NCBI GenBank assembly: GCA_944392975.1
Contig: CALXYN010000001.1
Coordinates: 1 to 64,000 of the forward strand
DNA length: 64,000 nucleotides
From: an uncultured Spirochaetaceae bacterium
GTDB taxonomy: Bacteria; Spirochaetota; Spirochaetia; Sphaerochaetales; Sphaerochaetaceae
Direction of reading: 5' to 3'
How positions within the stretch are numbered: position 1 is the stretch's first letter; every line of letters begins with the position of its first letter. A program made the translations under genes and the position numbers. Below, one piece after another: positions 14,207 through 31,652 of the stretch. The notes beneath the pieces were generated by a model. The model saw only the letters and a program-made list of their open reading frames with translations, made no database searches and had not been told where the DNA came from.

Positions 14207-14222
14207 TGTTTCACGTGAAACA
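14207..14222. other. parS site 1 (perfect)
   Basis: TGTTTCACGTGAAACA matches the widely conserved ParB-binding palindrome at all 16 positions. It lies 430 bp upstream of parA, beyond the NifU-like gene. Confidence 0.95.
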
Positions 14223-14480: not shown

Positions 14481-14496
14481 TGTTTCACGTGAAACA
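14481..14496. other. parS site 2 (perfect)
   Basis: A second exact TGTTTCACGTGAAACA, 274 bp (start to start) from site 1, in the gap between the NifU-like gene and gyrA. Confidence 0.95.
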
Positions 14497-19669: not shown

Positions 19670-19755
19670 GGGAAGCCATAAATTATGATACCTGTTTATC
19701 TCTTTGTTATTAATTAAGTTAAATGTACAATAATTATCTCTGCATCTCTTATTGC

Positions 19756-19784
19756 TTTACGGTTAAACAACCCTTTGATATAAT
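19756..19784 (+). promoter_or_regulatory. Promoter of dnaA (near-leaderless)
   Basis: TTTACG (19756-19761), 17-bp spacer ending TGA, then TATAAT (19779-19784). The predicted RNA start is 3-4 nt before the ATG at 19795. No DnaA box is visible in this dnaA-gyrB interval. Confidence 0.65.
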
Positions 19785-19794
19785 CTCCGGCAAT

Positions 19795-21141
19795 ATGGAA
19801 AATCTCAAAAATATATGGCAGCAAGCATCATCGCTTCTGGAGGAAACCCTACCTGAATCAAAACGGCAGTGGATAAAGCGTATAAACTTCGAAAAAGAGG
19901 AAAACGGAAGAATGATTCTCTCCCTTTCCTCTAACTTCTATAAAGAAACAACAGAAAAAAACTGCAAAGCAGACATTGAGAATACTGTCTCTGAAATTGC
20001 AGGACATGAAATACCGATAGAATTCGTAGTGAACACTGCGAGAAAACCAGTTGTAAAACAGGCCTCAAAGGAAGTTAAAAAAGAAAAAACAGAACCTGTT
20101 TCGCGTAATACGACGCTTAATAAGCAATATTCTTTCGAAAACTTCATCTCTGGAGATAATAGCAGTTTTGCATTCAATGCATGTAAGGTAATTGCTCAGA
20201 ATCCGGGAACTTCTTTCAATCCATGTCTGATTTATGGTGGAGTAGGTCTTGGAAAAACACATCTTCTGGAATCAATCGGAAACTACATTGATGAACATAA
20301 TCCGAAGATGAAAATCATTTATACAACAGCGGAAAGTTTCACTAATGAATTCATTGATTCTCTTCTTTCAAAGGAGAAAATCTCATCATTTAAGACAAAA
20401 TACAGGAATGTGGATGTTCTTCTTATCGATGATATCCATTTTCTTCAGAAGAAAGACTCTACACAGGAAGAGCTTTTCCATACATTCAACGAACTATATG
20501 ACAATCACAAGCAGATTGTACTTACATGTGATCGTCCTATAACGGAATTAACAGATATAACTGACAGATTGAAAACAAGATTCAGGAAAGGTCTTAATGT
20601 TGATTTGCAGCCACCAGCATATGAAACAAGAATGGCCATCGCGATGCAGAAATGCAGGGAAAAAGGTTATCAGATAGATCAGAAAGTACTTGAATACATC
20701 TGCCAGAATGTAAATACAAATGTCAGGGATCTTGAAGGTGCTCTTACAACTCTCAGTTCTTTTGCAACTCTTGTAGGAAAACCTGTTACTCTTGATATAG
20801 CAAAAGAGCAATTGAAGAATTTCATCGTTACTCCAGCAATAAGAAACAGCGATATCTCTATTGATATGATAATCCATAGTACGGCAGCCTATTTTAACGT
20901 AAAAGAATATGATATTAAGGGTAAAAGCAGGAATAAGAACATCACTCTAGCTCGTCATATCTCAATTTATCTTGCTTCTGAACTTACTTCATACTCCCTT
21001 TCAGAGATAGGAAAGATGATGAATGGAAAGGATCACACCACAATCATGTATTCTGTCGAAAAGATAAAATCAATCATCGAAACAGACGATTCTGTAAGAC
21101 AGGCAGTTAATACCATAAAGCAGGATCTTCTTAATTCCTGA
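19795..21141 (+). CDS. dnaA: Chromosomal replication initiator DnaA
   Basis: 448 residues. Domain I starts MENLKNIWQQASSLLEETLP, followed by a linker. The AAA+ domain starts at FENFISGDNSSFAFNACKVI with Walker A GGVGLGKTH and Walker B VLLIDDIHFLQKK. The domain IV helix-turn-helix signature is MMNGKDHTTIMYSVEKI. DnaA-ATP binds boxes in oriC, opens the duplex and loads the helicase. An open frame extends upstream to 19723, but the promoter lies inside it, so the ATG at 19795 is chosen. The boxes it should bind flank its 3' end. Confidence 0.97.
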   Translation: MENLKNIWQQASSLLEETLPESKRQWIKRINFEKEENGRMILSLSSNFYKETTEKNCKADIENTVSEIAGHEIPIEFVVNTARKPVVKQASKEVKKEKTEPVSRNTTLNKQYSFENFISGDNSSFAFNACKVIAQNPGTSFNPCLIYGGVGLGKTHLLESIGNYIDEHNPKMKIIYTTAESFTNEFIDSLLSKEKISSFKTKYRNVDVLLIDDIHFLQKKDSTQEELFHTFNELYDNHKQIVLTCDRPITELTDITDRLKTRFRKGLNVDLQPPAYETRMAIAMQKCREKGYQIDQKVLEYICQNVNTNVRDLEGALTTLSSFATLVGKPVTLDIAKEQLKNFIVTPAIRNSDISIDMIIHSTAAYFNVKEYDIKGKSRNKNITLARHISIYLASELTSYSLSEIGKMMNGKDHTTIMYSVEKIKSIIETDDSVRQAVNTIKQDLLNS

Positions 21142-21142
21142 G

Positions 21143-21379
21143 TTTTCCACAACCGGTGGAAAAACCCTGTGGAAAAGATGTTAATATGCTGTAGAAAGCA
21201 TCTGAAAAAAATGTGAAAAGAGAACGGGTTTTCCACAGCCCGTTTTCTTTTTTCCTTAAATCGGTGGAAAACTGTGGATAAGAATAAAAGTTTTCCACAT
21301 ATTTATCCACAATTCATTTTCTTTAAAGAAAAGAAGATAAATATAGTTTTCCACATTTTCTAGATGCTTACTATTATTA
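21143..21379. other. oriC: Replication origin oriC: DnaA-box cluster and DnaA-trio
   Basis: The dnaA-dnaN gap holds two consensus TTATCCACA boxes (21273-21281 minus, 21303-21311 plus) and five TTTTCCACA boxes (21143, 21229, 21291, 21347 plus; 21168 minus), besides one-mismatch GGTGGAAAA copies at 21156 and 21263. Twelve bases after the last box, TTA-CTA-TTA-TTA (21368-21379) fits the DnaA-trio pattern used for strand unwinding in Bacillus, followed by AT-rich DNA. Gene strands switch outward from here. Confidence 0.9.
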
Positions 21380-31349: not shown

Positions 31350-31380
31350 AGGAGTTTCGGGATGTAACGCTATATATGGG

Positions 31381-31652
31381 TTTTCCACAGGTTTTCCACA
31401 CCTCCGTGGAAATGATGTGGAAAAGGTGGAAAACTAAGGTATAAAAGCGTTTGATTGATAAAAATCGGTTATTTGTAATATATAATTTAATTCCTTATAT
31501 TATATAAAAATAGAATAAATTAAAAATGCGTCAATAACATAGGAGTTATATAAGTTCAATTCAGTTCTGATTGTGTATAAAAGGGTGTGGAAAACTAGTT
31601 TTCCCCAGAGTTTTCCACAGGTTTTCCACAGCATAAGTAAAAGTTATCCACA
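31381..31652. other. Second DnaA-box cluster with AT-rich core
   Basis: Seven exact boxes: TTTTCCACA at 31381, 31392, 31611 and 31622 (plus), the same at 31416 and 31586 (minus), and consensus TTATCCACA at 31644. One-mismatch copies lie at 31425 and 31599. The 20-mer TTTTCCACAGGTTTTCCACA occurs twice (31381 and 31611), each holding two boxes 11 bp apart. Between the groups lie about 140 bp of 80% AT (31471-31520 only about 8% GC). No gene lies in the gap 31337-31717. Confidence 0.8.

Follow-up and report, generated by a model that had tools for sequence, protein, structure and literature searches.

A family-wide DnaA-box element of fixed geometry downstream of dnaA in gut Spirochaetales, probably a control site for starting chromosome replication

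What is a second dense cluster of DnaA boxes doing in a spirochaete chromosome some 10 kb from the replication origin? The question is raised by a window of 64,000 nucleotides (the whole stretch analysed, positions 1 to 64,000 of contig CALXYN010000001.1 from an uncultured Spirochaetaceae bacterium). A sequence-only reading had reported seven exact DnaA boxes at 31381–31652, a duplicated 20-mer, an 11-bp step between boxes, and a density matching that of the dnaA–dnaN oriC about 10 kb away. A motif scan bears out each of these points. The boxes (TTWTCCACA) start at 31381, 31392, 31416 (minus strand), 31586 (minus strand), 31611, 31622 and 31644; the 20-mer TTTTCCACAGGTTTTCCACA occurs twice, 230 bp apart from start to start; the 11-bp step is found in both box pairs; and each site has seven exact boxes, with 10.2 kb between the element and the dnaA–dnaN boxes. 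The interior is indeed AT-rich, at about 76% AT; the 80% given earlier was a slight overstatement or referred to a narrower segment. The neighbours are, as described, a PfkB kinase and a sigma-54 AAA+ protein with no match to an HTH domain. The features of the element are as follows.

31368–31379, plus strand: outer motif CGCTATATATGG, which precedes the first box by 13 bp, an offset shared by most loci
31381–31389, plus strand: DnaA box L1 (TTTTCCACA), left pair
31392–31400, plus strand: DnaA box L2, 11 bp after L1
31416–31424, minus strand: inverted DnaA box, position −130 from TTATATAA
31487–31512, no strand assigned: core element A, a degenerate dyad with the family form TAATTCTTT-N7-AAAGAATTA
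31546–31553, no strand assigned: core element B, the palindrome TTATATAA, at distances of 165 bp from L1 on its left and 65 bp from R1 on its right
31572–31580, minus strand: weaker DnaA box TTATACACA
31586–31594, minus strand: inverted DnaA box, position +40 from TTATATAA
31600–31608, plus strand: degenerate box TTTTCCCCA, within the 11-bp lattice
31611–31619, plus strand: DnaA box R1, right pair
31622–31630, plus strand: DnaA box R2, 11 bp after R1
31644–31652, plus strand: DnaA box R4 (TTATCCACA), 22 bp after R2 on the same lattice

Exact sites number 97 in the 2.07-Mb assembly, a density at which about 0.013 would be expected per 272 bp, and they are clustered only at the element (7) and between dnaA and dnaN (7, 21143–21355). 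The relaxed motif TTWTNCACA gives 23 sites in the window against 6.06 expected, a number reached in none of 100 shuffles. Rfam contains no structured-RNA match for the element, and a structured RNA was rejected on that ground; the inverted boxes are taken to explain the RNA fold z-score of −4.2, which is given no weight as evidence. A mobile or plasmid origin was likewise rejected, since no plasmid match was found. The motif CACTATATATAG(T/G) flanks the element at −13 (31368–31379 in the window, and the right flanks of loci L018, L016, L007 and L017), and one subclade has a palindromic copy on the far side as well.

Synteny of the cluster in related genomes had been proposed as a check. A PfkB search led to gut Spirochaetales MAGs, Ca. 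Ornithospirochaeta, Bullifex porci and Ca. Aphodenecus. The element is recovered throughout the family while its flanking genes vary. After addition of closed genomes the collection comprises 87 elements, of which 59 share less than 75% identity with one another; these roughly 59 non-redundant loci come from Ca. Ornithospirochaeta, Bullifex, Ca. Aphodenecus and the closed genomes, of about 3.5 Mb, of another genus. Element scores are bimodal, with hardly any between 23 and 27. Every copy is found 8.5–16.3 kb downstream of dnaA, and all share one orientation, which may simply have been inherited with the gene order. Within the window's genus, 22 of 48 genomes match the exact pair–gap–pair pattern, and aligned copies keep a fixed register. 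Pattern searches restricted to TTWTCCACA missed the sister genera, whose boxes are TTTTCAACA or TTATGCACA.

A class-wide search with B and the right pair matched about 9 of some 303 genomes outside the family, with scattered gaps, compared with about 4 for a reversed control. Thus there is no evidence of the element outside the family, although a pattern that detects only about half of the elements inside it cannot prove their absence elsewhere. At L028 (13393–13716), a locus of another family, pfkB and a sigma-54 gene enclose two TTATCCACA-containing pairs with a spacing of 212 bp. The locus lacks TTATATAA, the sequence of element B, and is possibly a distant relative of the element. A single MAG, G050, has two copies (L042 and L043) beside two copies of pfkB, reflecting either a duplication or a mixed bin.

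The layout common to the family consists of two head-to-tail box pairs with an 11-bp step, about 230 bp apart, with A and B in between. Because the collection of 59 allowed boxes only near the expected lattice, the independent tests of spacing are a four-box scan and the motif search that yielded B. The scan required two pairs at 11 bp and left the pair-to-pair distance free from 150 to 319; 70 loci, some of them same-species duplicates, score at least 29 of 32, whereas the best scores of shuffled sequences are 21–26. Among these 70 the distance is 230 bp in 34, 229 in 8, 231 in 6, 228 in 4 and 232 in 2, so that 54 lie within 228–232 bp; 12 have 208 bp, and four have other values. A spacing of 230 bp would correspond to about 22 helical turns and 208 bp to about 20. 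Outside A, B and the boxes, spacer identity is 0.33, against 0.30 expected from composition. Since the spacer has diverged almost to randomness, the spacing is kept by selection and not by shortage of time.

The interior contains two further fixed points. In nearly all loci B, with the form [TC]TATATA[AG], has an offset of +165 (±2) relative to the first box and of −64 or −65 relative to the right pair. Where the pair spacing differs, the offsets become 154/−54, 143/−65 and 132/−65, which are 11-bp steps. Anchoring the alignment on B reveals the dyad A about 50 bp upstream. In several genera B extends to TTAAAAGTTATATAAGTTTTTAA; a genome search for the strict form AAASTTATATAA, which differs from the window's own B, returned nothing.

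Whether DnaA is the protein that reads these boxes can be judged by comparison with the origin, for which the features in the window are:

19723–21141, plus strand: dnaA, recognition helix NGKDHTTIMYS
21143–21355, no strand assigned: oriC DnaA boxes between dnaA and dnaN, the reference site with seven exact boxes
21368–21379, plus strand: DnaA-trio run TTACTATTATTA, separated from the last oriC box by 12 bp

The box form changes from group to group, and does so alike at oriC and at the element: TTWTCCACA in Ornithospirochaeta, TTTTCAACA in Bullifex and Aphodenecus, and the TTATGCACA type in another group. Over 48 genomes, letters 5 and 6 of the boxes at the two sites are correlated with r = 0.80 (CC), 0.81 (CA) and 0.82 (GC), a co-variation at the level of clades with few independent events behind these values. 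The recognition helix of DnaA varies in parallel (NGKDHTTIMYS, FDRDHSTITHS, YLNKDHTSVRYS and GGKNHTTVMY). Because the boxes of the element co-vary both with those of the origin and with this helix, the sequences indicate that DnaA is almost certainly its ligand.

A DnaA-binding cluster adjoining AT-rich DNA could itself be an origin, as had been suggested. In the window, dnaA is accompanied by dnaN and recF, with gyrB/gyrA upstream. The far end of dnaA–dnaN regions is formed by a box and, after a spacer of 12 bp, DnaA-trios, matching the published box-to-trio spacing of 10–13 bp (PMC8287927). Runs of at least four trios beside a box occur in 40 of 62 dnaA–dnaN regions but in only 1 of 59 elements. 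GC skew inside the window is dominated by gene orientation, and the skew check that had been proposed was made in four closed relatives. There the cumulative minimum falls 6.3–6.6 kb after the dnaA start and the element lies at about 16 kb; skew is a coarse measure on its own and places the switch only nearer to dnaA–dnaN than to the element. Because trios are present at dnaA–dnaN and absent at the element, and because the skew switches near dnaA–dnaN, the element is not the main origin. The proposal of a second origin found no support and was rejected on the same two grounds. The element resembles an oriC with a basal unwinding system in that its boxes adjoin AT-rich DNA, but it lacks the box followed by trios at about 10–13 bp and lies away from the skew switch.

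There remains the idea that the origin is bipartite with the element as its far part, or that the element is an auxiliary origin that unwinds at its AT core. Its box density and AT core resemble those of oriC, its side of dnaA and its orientation never vary, and the B. subtilis origin is bipartite (PMC5295017). However, dnaA–dnaN alone combines boxes, the 12-bp spacer and trios; in the closed genomes the skew is already positive, that is, leading-strand-like, at 5–15 kb, between dnaA and the element; and 8–14 kb with many genes separate the element from the origin. With trio runs so rare among elements, an origin function of either kind is unlikely. Within oriC itself (21229–21355 in the window, and in relatives), two boxes are 118–119 bp apart in most close relatives checked and 126 bp apart in L004.

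The element could instead serve an adjacent gene. DnaA is a known transcription factor, and in the window the element lies just upstream of the pfkB start (31336, the first box being at 31381), as would befit a DnaA-controlled promoter of pfkB or another neighbour. Yet pfkB and the sigma-54 gene are missing beside many copies: the flanks are pfkB and the sigma-54 gene in the window, rbr and the sigma-54 gene, perR and rsmE, or rsmE and ctp elsewhere, and a murA-like gene and a GGDEF gene (both named from sequence by eye) in the closed genomes. A two-ended geometry of 230 bp would also be unusual for a promoter. We consider this explanation very unlikely, and a local promoter was rejected because the neighbours turn over while the element stays.

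The element is origin-proximal, occurs once per genome and is fixed in geometry, as a centromere-like or segregation site near the origin might be. Perfect parS sites (TGTTTCACGTGAAACA) occur in the window only at 14207–14222 and 14481–14496, however, and the boxes of the element follow DnaA specificity; the element has no parS sequence. It is extremely unlikely that it acts in segregation, and the centromere reading was rejected because the parS sites are elsewhere. The parS pair adjoins gyrA, 5–6 kb upstream of dnaA, and is likely to be the ParB centromere.

The sequence comparisons thus leave the element as, probably, a control site for starting chromosome replication. A role in titrating or regulating DnaA is well supported by family-wide conservation, by co-variation of its boxes with oriC and the DnaA helix, and by its independence of neighbours; the head-to-head boxes of DARS type are not generally conserved. 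DnaA-modulating chromosomal sites have been worked out mainly in E. coli (datA and DARS) and more loosely in B. subtilis. The DARS core consists of head-to-head DnaA boxes I and II together with box III (PMC10380432). E. coli DARS1 and DARS2 are, like the window element, non-coding DnaA-box sites with inverted boxes, and DARS2 has bending-protein sites. In the window the inverted boxes face the direct pairs, at −130 and +40 from B, as might suit a reactivation site where inverted boxes exchange ADP-DnaA to ATP-DnaA and so promote initiation. By the exact-motif criterion, however, inverted boxes occupy these positions in only 15/59 and 11/59 elements, while the direct pairs are near-universal; a DARS-like role is improbable.

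Closer parallels lie elsewhere. In datA, boxes are combined with an IHF site, their spacing is important and a loop has been postulated; its minimal form spans 187 bp and comprises boxes 2, 3 and 7 plus one IHF site (PMC10380432). Like datA, the element is a non-coding cluster of several DnaA boxes that lies outside oriC yet close to it; in both, boxes surround an interior site and spacing is important. The element differs in its two direct pairs about 230 bp apart around A and B and shares no sequence or locus homology with datA. The two fixed palindromes are candidates for a bending site, and there is one gene for an HU/IHF-family protein, with no link between gene and palindromes. In B. subtilis, deletion of six DnaA-box clusters leads to early initiation (PMC5295017). 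The element is likewise a cluster of consensus boxes outside oriC, but a single one, with strict geometry and core palindromes conserved across the family. The best reading of these comparisons is an element of its own design that may be likened to datA or the B. subtilis clusters in its working.

Because the DnaA arrays end a fixed-length AT-rich core with two palindromes, the arrangement suggests a looped nucleoprotein complex. We lean, though not strongly, towards a dedicated chromosomal DnaA-binding control site, a partner of the origin but distinct from it, that titrates or inactivates DnaA in a loop after initiation. DnaA would bind the two in-phase head-to-tail arrays, each on an 11-bp lattice and separated by about 22 helical turns. 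A partner, possibly the one HU/IHF-family protein, would bend or bind the AT-rich core with A and B and so bring the arrays together in a loop. Lying 8–16 kb downstream of dnaA, the site would be copied moments after initiation, and the doubled site could tie up ATP-DnaA or cause it to hydrolyse ATP, thereby limiting re-initiation. What the sequences show are the sites, their geometry, conservation throughout the family, co-variation with DnaA and a main origin elsewhere; the loop, its protein partner and a negative sign of control are what we infer. No match to Hda was found above the cut-off in a MAG that is 95% complete; this, the near-origin position and the single HU/IHF-family protein would fit a post-initiation sink or inactivator of DnaA.

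It is possible, though we think it rather unlikely, that the element is neither datA, DARS nor a simple titration site but a distinct class of origin-companion element. Here a DnaA loop, locked at about 22 helical turns, would enclose two palindromes to which a putative dedicated partner binds, and its function might be, for example, obligate post-initiation shut-off of DnaA without Hda, or remote activation of oriC.

A literature search, in which subscription journals were thinly covered, found no description of DnaA-box clusters in spirochaetes or Sphaerochaeta. If the proposed role is true, a single element with base-pair-level geometry, present family-wide and co-evolving with the DNA-binding helix of DnaA, would provide a strong case in another phylum. 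With it one can also test how bacteria that lack Hda keep re-initiation in check, and dozens of aligned natural variants could be used to dissect how DnaA arrays cooperate at a distance. The DnaA proteins themselves form a natural specificity series in which recognition-helix changes accompany box changes at positions 5–6. Relative to the window, the C-termini from L050, L070, L065 and L079 show D to N, HTT to HST or HTS, and a one-residue deletion.
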